A stretch of 25,337 nt of DNA, from assembly GCA_030747075.1 (NCBI GenBank), contig JASLLL010000035.1, positions 1 through 25,337 on the forward strand. The letters are read 5' to 3'. The first letter of the stretch is position 1. Each line of letters starts with the position of its first letter. The stretch comes from Gemmatimonadota bacterium (GTDB taxonomy: Bacteria > ARS69). Shown one piece after another: positions 11,898 to 17,537 of this stretch. Both the position numbers and the translations under genes were made by a program. The notes beneath the pieces were generated by a model. It did no database searches, was not told the origin of the DNA, and saw only the letters and a program-made list of their open reading frames with translations.

Positions 11898-13214
11898 TCA
11901 GGCCACCCCCGGAGCGCCCCGGTCGATCACGAGCGGGCGCGCTTCCATCGGCTCTTCACAGAGGCGGACGGCACGGAGCAGCCGGGCGGTCGCCGCGGCC
12001 GCGTCATCCGCGGTCCGTGCATGGACTTCGGCGAAGGGATCCCCCTCTTCCAGAACATCCCCGAGCCGCGCATGGAACACGATCCCTACCGCCGGATCCA
12101 CGGCGTCCCCCACCTTCGCACGGCCCGCCCCGAGTCCGTTCGCCGCAAGCCCCACCTCCGCGGTGTCGATCGCGGCCAGAACACCCGCTTCCGGCGCGGT
12201 CGCCGCCACGCAGACCGGCGCGCGCGGCAACTTCCCGGGATCCGTCACGGCGGCCGGATCTCCGCCCTGGGCCGCCACCCAGTCTTCGAAGCGCTCCATC
12301 GCCGCCCCGGATGCAATCCGCTCCGCAAGAAGGTCCCGGCCGACCGCCCGGTCCTCCTCCACGCCCGCAACCGCGAGCATCTCCGCCCCCAGTGCCAGCG
12401 TCAGCTCCACGACATCCTCCGGCCCGCCCCCGGTGAGCACCTCTACCGACTCGGCGATCTCCAGCGCATTCCCCACCGCGCACCCCAGCGGCTGGTCCAT
12501 GGAGGTCACCAGAGCCACCGCCCTCTTTCCCATGCGCTCCGACACGGCGACGAGCACCCGCGCAAGTTCCCGGGCATCCTCGAGATCCCGCATGAAGGCG
12601 CCGGAGCCGGTCTTCACATCCAGCACGAGCGCACCCACCCCGGCCGCGTATTTCTTCGAGAGGATACTCGCCGTGATGAGCGGGATGCTCGGCACGGTGC
12701 CGGTCACATCGCGCAGTGCGTAGAGACGCGCATCGGCGGGCGCGAGGTTCTCCCCCGCGCTGGCAATGCAGAATCCGGTCTTCCCGAGGACGCTCCGAAA
12801 CTCCGCGGGCGAAAGGTCCGTGCGAAGCCCGGGGATCGACTCCAGCTTGTCGAGCGTTCCTCCCGTATGCCCGAGTCCGCGCCCGGAGATCATGGGGACG
12901 CTCACGCCGGCGCTGGCGACCAGCGGCGCAAGCGGGATGCTGATCTTGTCCCCGACGCCGCCGGTGGAGTGCTTGTCCACTTGAACGCCCGGGCGATCGG
13001 ACAGGTCCAGCACCTCGCCGGACTCCATCATGATCCGCGTCAGCGCCGCCGTTTCATCCGCCTCCATGCCGCGGAAGAGCACCGCCATCAGCCATGCGGA
13101 AATCTGGTACTCGGGGATGTCGCCGCTCAGAAGACCGCGAAGCAGCGCTTCCATCTCCTGCGGCGTGGTGGGGTGGCCTTCCCGTTTCCGGACGATGATC
13201 TCCGGGATGTTCAT
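11898..13214 (-). CDS. deoA: thymidine / pyrimidine-nucleoside phosphorylase
   Basis: Phosphorolyses thymidine (and deoxyuridine, possibly uridine) to the base and (deoxy)ribose-1-phosphate; 438 aa, normal length. The family signature SGRGLGHTGGTLDKLES is at 110-126. The phosphate/K+ region VDKHSTGGVGDKIS is at 79-92, and KTGSGAFM and a PyNP-type C-terminal barrel (ATAPEAGVLAAIDTAEVG) are also present. Start: the ATG at 13214 overlaps the deoC stop by one base (TGATG). The same frame runs far upstream through deoC, but that part is a shadow. The product feeds DeoB. Resemblance to the Bacillus Pdp class means uridine may also be a substrate. Confidence 0.95.
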   Translation of the reverse strand: MNIPEIIVRKREGHPTTPQEMEALLRGLLSGDIPEYQISAWLMAVLFRGMEADETAALTRIMMESGEVLDLSDRPGVQVDKHSTGGVGDKISIPLAPLVASAGVSVPMISGRGLGHTGGTLDKLESIPGLRTDLSPAEFRSVLGKTGFCIASAGENLAPADARLYALRDVTGTVPSIPLITASILSKKYAAGVGALVLDVKTGSGAFMRDLEDARELARVLVAVSERMGKRAVALVTSMDQPLGCAVGNALEIAESVEVLTGGGPEDVVELTLALGAEMLAVAGVEEDRAVGRDLLAERIASGAAMERFEDWVAAQGGDPAAVTDPGKLPRAPVCVAATAPEAGVLAAIDTAEVGLAANGLGAGRAKVGDAVDPAVGIVFHARLGDVLEEGDPFAEVHARTADDAAAATARLLRAVRLCEEPMEARPLVIDRGAPGVA

Positions 13215-14089
13215 CAGCCTTCGCCGTCCGGCCCGTCGCTTCCCTGCACGATCTCGATGGAGGCGCTCGCGCCGATCCGGGTGGCCCCCGCCTCGATCAT
13301 GCGCCGGGCTCCTTCGGCGTCGCGGATGCCCCCCGCCGCTTTGACGCCCATGTCCGGGCCGACAATCCGCCGCATGAGGCCGACATCCTCCACCGTCGCT
13401 CCTCCGGGACCGAAGCCGGTGGAGGTCTTGACATAGTCCGCCCCCGCCGCCTTCGCCAGCGCGCAGCCTTCGACCTTTTCCTCGTCCGTGAGGTAGGCCG
13501 TCTCCAGGATGACCTTGACGCGTGCGCTCGGACGGGAGCACTCCACGACCGCGCGAATGTCCCGCTCCACCGTTCCGTAGTCTCGGGACTTCAGCGCGCC
13601 GATATTGACGACCATGTCCACCTCGGTGGCCCCGTCGAGAACCGCGCGACGGGCCTCGAAGCTCTTCGTCTCCGGGCGGTTCATCCCGTGCGGAAAGCCC
13701 ACGACCGTACACACCTTGACCTCGGTGCCACGAAGCAGATCCGCGCAGACCGCCACCCACCACGGCTGCACGCAGACACTGGCGAAGGAGTGCTCCGCCG
13801 CTTCCCGGCAGAGGCGTTCGATGTCCTCGCGGGTGGAGTCGGGCTTGAGCACGGTATGGTCGATGAGCGAAGCCACTCCGCGCGCGGGGCGCTCGCCGGG
13901 AACGCCTCCGACACGGCAGATGCCCATGTCGCGGCAGAGCCCCGCGAGGTCCTCCTCCGGCACGCAGGCGGGATCCGTCACGGACGGTGCTGGCGAAGCG
14001 CAGTCGCACGCGGGTGCGGACTGCGGCGGCGCGGAGAGCGCGCGCACGACCTCCTCGGTGATCCGGGCGACCAGTTCTTCGCGGCTCAT
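13214..14089 (-). CDS. deoC: deoxyribose-phosphate aldolase with N-terminal encapsulation-peptide-like extension
   Basis: Splits 2-deoxyribose-5-phosphate into acetaldehyde and glyceraldehyde-3-phosphate. 291 aa, about 70 longer than a typical DeoC. The aldolase core starts near residue 75 ([10 protein letters not shown]) and contains [18 protein letters not shown], the Schiff-base lysine K221 ([10 protein letters not shown]) and K250 (MGVKAAGG). Residues 1-20 form a predicted amphipathic helix ([17 protein letters not shown]). A Pro/Ala-rich linker and five cysteines (28, 30, 42, 52, 58) follow before the core. Helix plus linker is the layout of microcompartment-targeting peptides, and the preceding RpiB homologue carries a similar one. 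The ATG at 14089 overlaps the rpiB stop (ATGA). Confidence 0.95.
14030..14089 (-). other. candidate encapsulation peptide coding segment of DeoC (residues 1-20)
   Basis: Encodes [19 protein letters not shown] after the Met. Hydrophobic residues L, V, I, V, V and L recur at 3-4-residue spacing with charged residues between, giving an amphipathic helix, then a PPQSAPA linker. This matches the general design of N-terminal targeting peptides on microcompartment cargo (for example PduP, PduD). Assignment is by pattern, not by alignment. Confidence 0.55.
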
Positions 14090-14646
14090 GATCCCAGCTC
14101 CATGATCTTCTCCACGCGTCGGAGGTGCCGATCCCCGCCGAAGTGCGTCTGGAGCCACAGGTCCACCATTCGACGGGCGAGCGCCGCCGGAACGACGCGG
14201 GCGCCGAGCGAAAGCACATTGGCATCGTTGTGCTCGCGGCTGTTGAGAACGGTGGCGACATCGTGGCAGAGCGCGCACCGGACGCCCGCGACCTTGTTCG
14301 CCGCCATGGACGAACCGATCCCGACCGTGTCGATCACGATTCCCGCCTGGCACTTCCCGTCACGCACGCGCCCGGCGACCGCCGCCGCGTAGTCGGGGTA
14401 ATCCACGGACTTCCGACCCTGGGTGCCGCAGTCTACCACCGTGTACTTCTTCGCCTCCAGAAACCGCACAAGGTCGTCCTTCAGCACGACGCCCCCGTGA
14501 TCGGATCCGATGGCGACCGCTTTCGGAGGCCACAACGCGGGGACCGGCGCACGCGAGGACGGACGCGCCTCCCCGGAATCCATCCTGTCCACCACGCGGC
14601 GGACGACTTCCGCGACGAGAGCCTCGTCGGGGGTGTTGGTGTTCAT
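14086..14646 (-). CDS. rpiB: RpiB/LacA/LacB-family sugar-phosphate isomerase with encapsulation-peptide-like N-terminus
   Basis: 186 aa, against about 145-150 for a plain RpiB. The core begins at about residue 43 (VAIGSDHGG), followed by [23 protein letters not shown] and [15 protein letters not shown], all RpiB-family blocks. The expected function is ribose-5-phosphate/ribulose-5-phosphate isomerisation, linking ribose from nucleosides to the pentose phosphate pathway. The canonical catalytic stretch CGTGIG reads DTVGIG here, with D106 in place of the Cys, so substrate or mechanism may differ. Residues about 7-24 ([18 protein letters not shown]) form a helix followed by a Pro/Ala linker, like that of DeoC. 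Start: the ATG at 14646 overlaps the cdd stop (ATGA). The upstream 26-codon extension of the frame lies inside cdd and is rejected. Confidence 0.9.
14575..14646 (-). other. candidate encapsulation peptide coding segment of the RpiB homologue (residues 1-24)
   Basis: Encodes a helix [18 protein letters not shown] after a short polar start, followed by a linker with repeated Pro and Ala ([15 protein letters not shown]). It shares the LVA-x(5)-VV core with the DeoC tag, although the two enzymes have different folds. That argues for a common targeting function rather than common descent of the catalytic domains. Confidence 0.55.
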
Positions 14647-15056
14647 TCCATCTCCAGCGTGAAGGGCCGGGGAAGCAACTCCCCCAGCGTGGTTCGGGCG
14701 GTTCCCTCCGGGGAATCCACCCACACGGGAAGATCATCCCCGCCGAACTCCCGGAGCACCTGTCGACAGGCCCCGCAGGGCCACGGCGACGAAGGCCCCG
14801 GCGAATAGACCGCCACAGCGGCAAGTGGTGCGGAAATCGGGTCCACCAGCCCCTTCTCCCGGGCCGAGAAGACCGCCACCCGCTCCGCGCACATGGAGAG
14901 CCCGTAGGACACATTCTCCACATTGCAGCCGGTCACGATCTCGCCGGAAGCGGTGAGGACCGCCGCGCCCACCCGGTACTTCGAGTAGGGCGCCCAGGCA
15001 CGGTCCGCGGCCGCGCGGGCCGCACTCAGCAGTTCTTGTTCCCTGTCCGCATTCAT
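14643..15056 (-). CDS. cdd: cytidine deaminase
   Basis: Zinc enzyme that deaminates cytidine and deoxycytidine to uridine and deoxyuridine, which DeoA can then cleave; 137 aa, the size of the homotetrameric class. Visible motifs are CNVENVSYGLSMCAER (substrate NxEN element, zinc-ligand Cys and catalytic Glu) and PCGACRQVL (two further zinc-ligand Cys). There is no N-terminal tag: the protein starts directly with the usual first helix (ADREQELLSAARAAADRAWAPYS). The ATG at 15056 overlaps the deoB stop and its own stop overlaps the rpiB start, both as ATGA. Confidence 0.95.
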   Translation of the reverse strand: MNADREQELLSAARAAADRAWAPYSKYRVGAAVLTASGEIVTGCNVENVSYGLSMCAERVAVFSAREKGLVDPISAPLAAVAVYSPGPSSPWPCGACRQVLREFGGDDLPVWVDSPEGTARTTLGELLPRPFTLEME

Positions 15057-16255
15057 GCGCCGAGTGTCCCCCTTTCCGGGCCAGCGGGCAAGTCCCGGAG
15101 AAAGGAATGTCCCGCCGGAGGCGAGTCCAGCCCGAAGTTCTCCGCGAGGGTCGCGGCCACATCGGCGAAAGTGCCGCGGGTGCCAAGTGAAACGCCGGGG
15201 AGGCGGCCCCCCGTCGAAACAAGAAGCGGCACCTCTTCGCGGGTATGGTCGGTGCCCGGGTGGGTGGGGTCGTTGCCGTGATCCGCCGTGAGGATGAGAA
15301 TCGTCTCCTCCCCGGCGGCGTCTGCGAGCGCGGGAATCCGCGAGTCCAGATCCTCCAGAGCGCGCGCCATTCCGGAAGGATCGTTCCGGTGGCCGTACTC
15401 CGAGTCGAACTCCACCAGATTCGTGAAGACCATCCCCCGGTCCATGTGGCGCAGAGCCTCGGCGGTGGCGTCCATGCACTCCGCCAGCGGCAGCACATGC
15501 CGGGAGCGCGTGATTCCCCGGTGAGCGAAGATGTCGTCGATCTTCCCCACGGAGACGACTTCCAGCCCGGCGGCGTGCGCGCGGTCGAGAACCGTGGGCG
15601 CGGGCGGCGGCAGCGAGAAGTCCCGGCGCCGGGAAGTCCGGGCGAAGGCACCCGCCTCCCCCGCGAACGGCCGGGCGATGACGCGCCCCACGGCGTGCGG
15701 ACCGGTGAGGAATGCGCGCGCTTCCCGGCAGAGTTCGTAAAGACGCTGTGGGGGAATCCGTTCTTCGTGCGCGGCGATCTGGAAGACCGAATCCGCCGAG
15801 GTGTAGACAATGGGCCGCCCCGTGCGAAGATGTTCCTCTCCGAGGCGGGCGATGATCTCCGTGCCGGACGCGACCTCGTTCCCGAGTGCCGGGCATCCGG
15901 CCGCCTGCTCAAACGCCCGGAGCACTTCCTCCGGGAATCCGTCCGGGAATGTGGGCAGGGGCACATCCGTCACCACCCCCGCAAGCTCCCAGTGGCCGGT
16001 CGTCGTGTCCTTCCCGGCCGAGGCTTCACGCATCCTTCCCCACGACGCCTCCGGCGTGGCGACCGCGGGAACTCCGGCGATCGTCGCGACATTCCCGAGG
16101 CCGAGCCGCGCCAGATTGGGAAGCGAGAGTCCGCCGACCGCTTCGGCCGTGTGCCCGAGCGTGTTGGCCCCCTGGTCGCCGAAGTCGGCGGCGTCCGGAG
16201 CGTCTCCGATGCCGACCCCGTCGATCACGACAATGGCCGCACGCGGGAAGCTCAT
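15053..16255 (-). CDS. deoB: phosphopentomutase
   Basis: Converts (deoxy)ribose-1-phosphate to (deoxy)ribose-5-phosphate, the step between DeoA and DeoC. 400 aa, normal length. It is an alkaline-phosphatase-superfamily metalloenzyme. The Mn-binding and phosphorylation motifs are VIDGVGIGDAPDA at the N-terminus, KDTTTGHWELAG (active-site Thr region), EFDSEYGHRND and TADHGNDPTHPGTDHTRE. Start: the ATG at 16255 (MSFPRAAIVVIDG) overlaps the alr stop as ATGA. The longer frame into alr is a shadow. Confidence 0.96.
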   Translation of the reverse strand: MSFPRAAIVVIDGVGIGDAPDAADFGDQGANTLGHTAEAVGGLSLPNLARLGLGNVATIAGVPAVATPEASWGRMREASAGKDTTTGHWELAGVVTDVPLPTFPDGFPEEVLRAFEQAAGCPALGNEVASGTEIIARLGEEHLRTGRPIVYTSADSVFQIAAHEERIPPQRLYELCREARAFLTGPHAVGRVIARPFAGEAGAFARTSRRRDFSLPPPAPTVLDRAHAAGLEVVSVGKIDDIFAHRGITRSRHVLPLAECMDATAEALRHMDRGMVFTNLVEFDSEYGHRNDPSGMARALEDLDSRIPALADAAGEETILILTADHGNDPTHPGTDHTREEVPLLVSTGGRLPGVSLGTRGTFADVAATLAENFGLDSPPAGHSFLRDLPAGPERGTLGA

Positions 16256-17445
16256 GCGTCTTCGGTCTTCGGGAGAAGGGGCGGCATGGTGCCGAGGAGC
16301 GTCCGCTCGCCCACCGTCTGTCCGACGCGCGTGTACACGCGGGCCACGCGGCGCCCGATCCCGCAGAGGATCTCGTAGGGGATCGTGCCGGTGGTCTCGG
16401 CGATTCGCTCCACGCGGATCTCTTCGTCGCCCTGCCGCCCGAAGAGCGTGATTTCGTCGCCGAGCTTCGCCTCGGGAACGCCGCGCAGGTCGAAGACCGT
16501 GGTGTCCATGGTGACCCGCCCGAGAATGGGAACCCGGCACCCCCGGCAGAGCGCGGCCCCCCGGCCCGACAGCCTGAACGGCAACCCGTGGCCGTACCCG
16601 ATGGCCGCCGTGCCCACGCGCATCGTCTGCGGCGTGACGAACTCTCCCCCGTAGCTCACCGGGTGCCCGGGGCCGAGTTCCCGCACATGGACGAGGCGAC
16701 TCGCCAGGCGCATCACGGGCGACAGGCCCTGCGGCGGGACGACGCCGGAGGAGGGCGTGAGGCCGTACGCCAGCAGGCCCGGCCGCACCATGTCGAGGCG
16801 CGAACCCGCATGGTTCACCAACCCGGCGGAGTTGGCCGCGTGAAGAAGCCCGGGGCTCAGCCCGGCGGCACGCAGGGCGTCCGCGGTGGCCAGCAGGTCC
16901 TCGAACTGGCGCGAGGTCATGGACACGCCGTCCGGTGAATCCGCGCGCGGGAAGTGGGTGTAGGTCCCGGTCAGCCGGATGCCGGGCATCTCGGCAAGCG
17001 CGGCGGCAAACGACACCGCATCCGCGGGAGGCAGCCCGGTGCGCCCCATCCCGGTGTCGATCTCCAGCTGAACCCCGATCTCCCGCCCGGCCGCGCGAGC
17101 CCGGGCGGAGAGCGCCCGCGCAATCCCGGAGTCCGCCACGGTCGCCGTCAGGTCGTGCTCGACAATGGCCCCGGCTTCCGGTGCCAGCGTCGGCGAGAGG
17201 ATGATGACGGGAATCCGGATTCCGTCTCGACGAAGCTCAATCCCTTCGTCCAGCGTGGCCACTCCCAGCGAGTGGACTCCCTCCGTCTCCGCAATCCGCC
17301 CGATCGGTCCGGCCCCGTGCCCGTACGCGTCGGCCTTGACCACCAGATGAATCTGCACCTGTTCACCCACTTCGCGCCGGATGACGCGGAGATTGGCTGA
17401 AAAGGCGTCGAGGTCGATCTCTACCCATGTGCTGCGGTTTTTCAC
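16252..17445 (-). CDS. alr: alanine racemase
   Basis: PLP enzyme making D-alanine for peptidoglycan; 397 aa from the chosen start. The PLP lysine K37 is in VVKADAYGHG. The catalytic Tyr Y265 is in VSYGGEF. The signature RLDMVRPGLLAYG and the C-terminal barrel block GRVTMDTTVFDL are present. Start: the frame is open to a GTG at 17463, but AGGAG lies about 10 nt before the GTG at 17445 (VKNRSTWVEIDLDAF), so 17445 is preferred; the first conserved residues follow directly. It is the first gene of the overlapped minus-strand operon, an unusual partner for nucleoside catabolism. A TATTCT at 17477-17482 could be its -10, but no -35 fits. Confidence 0.94.
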   Translation of the reverse strand: MKNRSTWVEIDLDAFSANLRVIRREVGEQVQIHLVVKADAYGHGAGPIGRIAETEGVHSLGVATLDEGIELRRDGIRIPVIILSPTLAPEAGAIVEHDLTATVADSGIARALSARARAAGREIGVQLEIDTGMGRTGLPPADAVSFAAALAEMPGIRLTGTYTHFPRADSPDGVSMTSRQFEDLLATADALRAAGLSPGLLHAANSAGLVNHAGSRLDMVRPGLLAYGLTPSSGVVPPQGLSPVMRLASRLVHVRELGPGHPVSYGGEFVTPQTMRVGTAAIGYGHGLPFRLSGRGAALCRGCRVPILGRVTMDTTVFDLRGVPEAKLGDEITLFGRQGDEEIRVERIAETTGTIPYEILCGIGRRVARVYTRVGQTVGERTLLGTMPPLLPKTEDA

Positions 17446-17537
17446 GGGATGCACACTCCTCACCGTCTGAAACGGCAGAATAGCTTGGGCGGCCGCGAAC
17501 CCGCTACGGCAAACTTGGCGGGAACGGCTCCCCGTGC

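Follow-up and report, generated by a model that had tools for sequence, protein, structure and literature searches.

The stretch of DNA analyzed here very probably carries the cargo half of an SPU-type microcompartment, relocated from the shell genes to a pyrimidine-nucleoside operon. To judge from the sequences, DeoC, RpiB, and an aldehyde dehydrogenase (AldDH) would be packed into a shell encoded on another contig, for the breakdown of deoxyribose-5-phosphate. The bacterium would thus probably degrade DNA-derived sugar within a compartment made of protein. The genes, the tags on their products, the operon, the shell set, the co-conservation of cargo and shell, and the contiguous relatives can be read directly from the DNA.

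RpiB and DeoC are encoded in a pyrimidine-nucleoside operon

The window, i.e., the whole stretch analyzed, is contig JASLLL010000035.1 (25,337 nt; C35) of a Gemmatimonadota bacterium (GCA_030747075.1). The genome (G000) comprises 2.67 Mb in 61 contigs and is rated 100% complete. On the minus strand of the window, six genes are arranged in the order alr-deoB-cdd-rpiB-deoC-deoA, with overlaps of 4 or 1 bases, which suggest that their translation is coupled. The overlapping run starts with the alanine racemase gene alr (16252..17463; PF01168/PF00842), which shares 4 bases with the next gene (15053..16255). The latter encodes a phosphopentomutase-type metalloenzyme (PF01676, 3e-40), which we take to be DeoB from its operon context and from knowledge of the family. 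It is followed by cdd for cytidine deaminase (14643..15056; PRK05578, 7.9e-38), and the run ends with deoA for a thymidine/pyrimidine-nucleoside phosphorylase (11898..13214; PRK05820, 2.1e-162). DeoB, Cdd, and DeoA are without a tag. Between cdd and deoA lie rpiB (14086..14646), encoding an RpiB-family sugar-phosphate isomerase of a BMC-linked clade (186 aa; PF02502, 4.5e-52, from residue 44), and deoC (13214..14089), encoding a deoxyribose-5-phosphate aldolase (291 aa; TIGR00126, 6e-86, match from residue 72).

In DeoC, the core residues that catalysis should require (D158, K221, and K250) were invariant in the alignment. Genome searches revealed that RpiB is the sole RpiB of this bacterium and DeoC its sole PF01791 match. 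Both enzymes may serve the compartment and housekeeping alike.

Both enzymes carry an N-terminal encapsulation-peptide-like tag

The preliminary description of this DNA had claimed that DeoC and RpiB each bear an N-terminal tag and had quoted the tag sequences. Indeed, both proteins start with an 18-residue helix followed by a disordered linker, and the sequences were quoted correctly. In RpiB, the helix spans residues 7-25 (14572..14628, minus strand; profile match, predicted helix 8-24) and is followed by a Pro/Ala-rich linker (14521..14571, minus strand) that varies between genera and has a low pLDDT (mean of 50 for residues 31-40). In DeoC, the helix spans residues 3-20 (14030..14083, minus strand; profile match, predicted helix 3-19), and the linker (13874..14029, minus strand; low pLDDT at 26-44 and 56-68) contains a second short conserved segment before the catalytic barrel. 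The helices were predicted by AlphaFold2 from input alignments of 19 (RpiB) and 22 (DeoC) sequences, each with a low-confidence linker behind it. Because the Pfam domain starts at residue 44, RpiB has approximately 42 extra residues ahead of its catalytic domain; the extension of DeoC comprises approximately 70. None of the solved RpiB and DeoC structures aligned to either tag, the alignment covering the cores only.

Both proteins have the layout of an encapsulation peptide, namely a terminal helix of 15 to 20 residues and a poorly conserved linker. The hydrophobic moment of the tags (0.42-0.47) was matched by 12-16% of shuffles, so the amphipathicity of a single tag is unremarkable. The hydrophobic pattern of the tags (i, i+3, i+4, i+7, i+11) is common to SPU tags.

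The genome encodes a shell set and a tagged AldDH on a second contig

It was also correctly noted in the preliminary description that the window contains neither a shell gene nor an aldehyde dehydrogenase gene, and a search for BMC-H and BMC-P genes and a tagged AldDH elsewhere was proposed. The genome contains all of these on contig C5: PF00936 matched four domains, distributed over three proteins, PF03319 matched another three proteins, and the AldDH encoded there starts with a matching tag. The genome is thus not the shell-free one that was named as speaking against packaging; it encodes two BMC-H, one BMC-T, and three BMC-P proteins.

The C5 locus lies on the minus strand and starts with two BMC-H genes (66896-66582 and 66515-66222) and a BMC-P gene (66194-65886). 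These are followed by the genes for AldDH (65868-64405; PRK15398, 1.9e-186), a PduS/RnfC-like protein (64408-63134), a PduT-like BMC-T (63137-62538), and two further BMC-P proteins (62541-62248 and 62269-61970). A class II aldolase gene (61973-61203, corresponding to L008 13204-13974) ends the locus. From the AldDH gene onward, neighboring genes share 4 to 22 bases. The AldDH N terminus, MATDTRRIDSIVGEVLARLEAEG, has the helix pattern of the RpiB and DeoC tags. The enzyme shares 49-59% identity with its counterparts in contiguous DeoC/RpiB loci, and its relatives suggest a CoA-acylating, acetaldehyde-type enzyme. The C-terminal helix of the class II aldolase is a weak tag in this genome (score 1.6), and the enzyme may point to a second substrate for the same shell. 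No PF06130 match, and hence no PduL phosphotransacylase, was detected in the genome. The only BMC-T found was the PduT-like one, in a search in which CsoS1D/CcmP-like proteins score weakly with PF00936 (1.2e-5, 5.6e-7). Since the assembly consists of 61 contigs, C5 and C35 are linked by binning only.

The idea of a cargo operon stands as far as the tagged cargo genes are concerned; the shell genes are separate, so that there are two split loci. The tag is carried by both DeoC and RpiB as described, but is not confined to this pair, since it also occurs at the N terminus of AldDH and at the C terminus of the class II aldolase. The interpretation as cargo of a sugar-phosphate microcompartment is supported by the shell set and the matching AldDH tag, from which we infer encapsulation itself.

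The nucleoside operon and the shell locus are conserved in the family

The phylum sample consisted of five genomes, all of one family. Four genera (G000, G001, G003, and G004) have alr followed by deoB-cdd-rpiB-deoC-deoA, although the contig of G001 ends within deoA. In every family member in which the region is present, alr heads the overlapping nucleoside operon; it has no obvious part in the pathway. Three genera have the shell locus, H-H-P-AldDH-T-P-P-class II aldolase, which is kept in G003 and G004, and G002 has its start. A PduS gene was found in G004; G003 gave no match. Both G003 and G004 have counterparts of the C5 and C35 loci, again on separate contigs.

Tag sequences, whose pairwise identity averages 63% for RpiB and 69% for DeoC, retain their hydrophobic pattern. 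Among relatives, linker length ranges from 15 to 21 (RpiB) and from 13 to 34 residues (DeoC), and the linker sequence diverges. The class II aldolase ends with ADEEIVARVTERVLAELR (then TQARGG) in G003 and with EDELVERIVGQVLERLRG in G004, and these two C termini had the highest scores of all tags. No shell gene was found in G001 (82% complete), and no DeoC or RpiB in G002 (67% complete), gaps that fit with incomplete assembly. The preliminary description had also considered a lineage in which the same extensions occur without shells. Instead, tags and shells co-occur except in these two incomplete assemblies.

Contiguous relatives point to a split locus

Among the named RpiB relatives that share this tag, the nearest are mostly from Anaerolineae (e.g., SDEQLHNLVERVVKQTLGG in L029), and their genes are located in loci that hold DeoC, AldDH, BMC-H, and BMC-P genes. 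The DeoC tags of such loci read ETLVEIITREVLLAM and are comparable to the DeoC tag in the window. L036 (Eisenbacteria) and L054 show the gene order RpiB-DeoC-BMC-T(CsoS1D-like)-BMC-H-BMC-P-AldDH-BMC-T-BMC-P-BMC-P-class II aldolase, where the label CsoS1D-like is based on a weak PF00936 match and sequence reading. If cut after DeoC, this order gives both halves found in our genome. Because these genes are uninterrupted within a single locus elsewhere, C35 appears to hold the split-off front of an SPU-type locus, and the contiguous relatives point to fission of one ancestral locus. Furthermore, 13 of the 14 genomes of RpiB relatives without a shell gene on the fetched stretch have shell genes elsewhere; in the remaining one, RpiB is untagged and of the Cys type.

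Outside the family, the RpiB genes of the nearest lineages (L021 and L060) are also located among nucleoside genes, that of L060 near phosphopentomutase and adenosine deaminase genes. The L021 contig (Eisenbacteria, tagged RpiB) carries genes for a thymidine kinase, a uridine-kinase-family protein, and a PnrA-type nucleoside-binding protein. The shell locus of the L021 genome, H-H-P-AldDH-T-P-P, is on a different contig. In Bryobacterales (G008), a class II aldolase gene lies beside BMC genes (L130 4665-5369), and an Asp-type RpiB-DeoC pair is on another contig (L041); possibly, this is a second split locus.

In an alternative interpretation, the tags are encapsulation peptides, but the main job of the compartment concerns another sugar phosphate, processed by the class II aldolase, as in PVM, GRM5, or ACI compartments, with DeoC and RpiB as optional cargo. 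The class II aldolase gene is part of the shell locus and is kept there in G003 and G004, with the top-scoring C-terminal tags, and it adjoins BMC genes in L054 and L130. However, the contiguous loci of highest similarity (L034-L079) start with RpiB and DeoC, and only 2 of 11 contain the class II aldolase (fetched stretch); moreover, the AldDH identity given above is to enzymes of these RpiB/DeoC-first loci. We therefore consider this alternative rather unlikely.

Several relatives encode RpiB-DeoC fusions with an encapsulation-like helix between the domains (L036 6007-7518, L040 4176-5516, L042, L047, L051, L054, L073, and L079); such a fusion was noted by Axen et al. for Marinimicrobia (PMC4207490). 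These fusions would also suit helices that cluster DeoC, RpiB, and AldDH into a condensate or multienzyme complex with no closed shell, and encapsulation peptides alone can drive cargo condensation (PMC12339742). Nevertheless, the full complement of shell tiles, with vertex proteins among them, is co-conserved with the cargo, and no complete genome demonstrates that tags are kept after shell loss, which makes a shell-free assembly improbable.

Profile searches recover the three N-terminal tags

An independent profile of 15 columns was built from only the tags of SPU-type RpiB, DeoC, and AldDH from other phyla, mostly from loci with adjoining shell genes. It was run against 90,407 windows, i.e., all long six-frame reading frames in 64 kb of G000, and the N termini of AldDH, RpiB, and DeoC ranked 3, 4, and 5; ranks 1 and 2 were ORF-internal positions. 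With profile A1, made from the family's own tags, a search of the whole genome at E<=10 gave three places, namely the N termini of DeoC (2.0e-6), AldDH (3.2e-6), and RpiB (1.5e-5), a search that is circular for these three because their tags went into A1. No further tag-like place was found in the whole genome at this threshold.

A chance likeness of two helices was ruled out by the ranks with the independent profile and by the tagged AldDH. More generally, although leucine/valine-rich helices are common and single tags are not unusually amphipathic, it is most improbable that the extensions are lineage-specific helices unrelated to packaging (serving, e.g., oligomerization), since the pattern is common to three unrelated enzymes and the end of a fourth, occurs nowhere else in the genome at E<=10, and is found on orthologues inside shell loci.

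The window RpiB belongs to an Asp-type clade

The canonical RpiB loop, (I/V)CGTGIG, holds the catalytic Cys, whose role is known from E. coli RpiB. The RpiB encoded in the window does not have this feature: alignment to solved RpiBs and a loop survey showed Asp106 (14329..14331, minus strand) in place of the Cys, the loop reading IDTVGIG versus canonical ICGTGIG and mostly DGAGIG in relatives. The survey covered 80 loci, picked by similarity to this RpiB and including related, nonindependent ones. Among them, 42 were of the Asp type, and for 35 of these the fetched stretch included genes for DeoC and/or BMC proteins, versus none of the 38 loci with a Cys or Gly loop. Given how the loci were picked, a p-value for this contrast does not measure events. 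In the tree, the Asp type forms one side of a branch with a support of 100/96. The clade and the loop survey disfavor a housekeeping-only role of RpiB and DeoC.

Some RpiBs of the same clade have another N-terminal extension, TPLARxxAxERGVxI or TPSARDxAxxRGIxI, which replaces the encapsulation helix (L018, L022, L026, L034, L035, L038, L041, L050, L064, L068, L078, L080, and L093).

Asp at the position of the catalytic Cys in BMC-linked RpiBs (L018-L097) may serve as a tag-independent cargo marker, and the replacement hints at a changed chemistry. As a tentative extension, the BMC-linked Asp-type RpiBs might not be ribose-5-phosphate isomerases but might act on another nucleoside- or deoxynucleoside-linked sugar phosphate. 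SPU compartments would then run an undescribed two-enzyme pathway for DNA sugar, and the one shell present here would serve this pathway as well as the class II aldolase route.

Discussion

According to the proposed pathway, Cdd would deaminate deoxycytidine, DeoA would cleave deoxyuridine or thymidine to deoxyribose-1-phosphate, and DeoB would convert the latter to deoxyribose-5-phosphate in the cytosol. Packaging of DeoC and RpiB together with the tagged AldDH into the C5-encoded shell would be mediated by their N-terminal helices. There, DeoC would produce glyceraldehyde-3-phosphate and acetaldehyde, AldDH would convert acetaldehyde to acetyl-CoA, and the shell would stop acetaldehyde leakage. 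RpiB may handle pentose phosphate that arrives in the same way. A second aldehyde may be brought into the shell by the class II aldolase, whose C-terminal tag, though weak in G000, is clear in two sister genera. Packaging, this flow of substrates, the substrate of RpiB, and any recycling of cofactors are what we infer from gene content and tags.

The role of SPU compartments in DNA breakdown has so far been inferred from two enzymes only. The location of these signature enzymes between cdd, deoB, and deoA in four genera ties the compartment to deoxynucleosides and thereby to a concrete substrate. Moreover, scans restricted to shell-gene neighborhoods miss such cargo, and tags can locate it. 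The Asp-type RpiB provides a sequence marker for cargo and puts the function of this "isomerase" in question.

Ordinary deo operons, such as E. coli deoCABD, also group the Deo enzymes of nucleoside breakdown, as the operon described here does. To our knowledge, however, neither DeoC nor RpiB of the ordinary kind carries an encapsulation tag, and such an RpiB has Cys, not Asp, as its catalytic residue.

The defining feature of SPU compartments is the occurrence of pfam01791 and pfam02502 in shell loci; a role in DNA breakdown was proposed for them (Sutter 2021, PMC8217296). With >280 loci in 26 phyla, they are among the most widespread compartment types (PMC8217296). No experimental work on an SPU compartment turned up in our literature search, and a paper on Ca. 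Effluviviacota (PMC11323493) mentions microcompartments with no link to DeoC or nucleosides. Like SPU1-7, G000 has a DeoC-type pfam01791 enzyme, an RpiB-type pfam02502 protein, AldDH, and a BMC-H/T/P shell; PduS is present as in the SPU loci of Atribacteria, and the gene order corresponds to L036/L054. In contrast to SPU loci, the signature enzymes are encoded on another contig than the shell (C35 versus C5), in the deoB-cdd-rpiB-deoC-deoA operon and not in the same locus. PduL, described in 2014 for most SPU loci (Axen 2014, PMC4207490), was not found in the genome; no CsoS1D-like BMC-T gene was found beside the shell genes, while L036/L054 have one; and the shell locus ends with a class II aldolase gene. 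The SPU-like loci of Latescibacteria (Axen 2014) share AldDH, PduS, an RpiB-like protein, and a class II aldolase with G000. However, they have PduL and acetate kinase and lack DeoC, while G000 has DeoC and lacks PduL. A class II aldolase with a C-terminal encapsulation peptide (EP) was described for ACI loci (Sutter 2021, PMC8217296).

In HO compartments (Haliangium), remotely encoded pfam01791 enzymes have EP-like N-terminal extensions (Sutter 2021, PMC8217296). G000 resembles this type in its remote pfam01791 enzyme with an EP-like tag, its BMC-P triplet, and the module of two BMC-P proteins and an aldolase. Unlike in HO, the remote RpiB is tagged too, the pair is located in a nucleoside operon, and the one BMC-T found is PduT-like; a match to the double-stacked type typical of HO, which scores weakly with PF00936, was not found. 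SPU compartments and the principle of a remotely encoded, tagged DeoC are thus already published. As far as the searched literature shows, three aspects look new: both signature enzymes, remote and tagged, in a pyrimidine-nucleoside operon throughout a family; relatives that point to fission of the locus; and the Asp-type RpiB clade.
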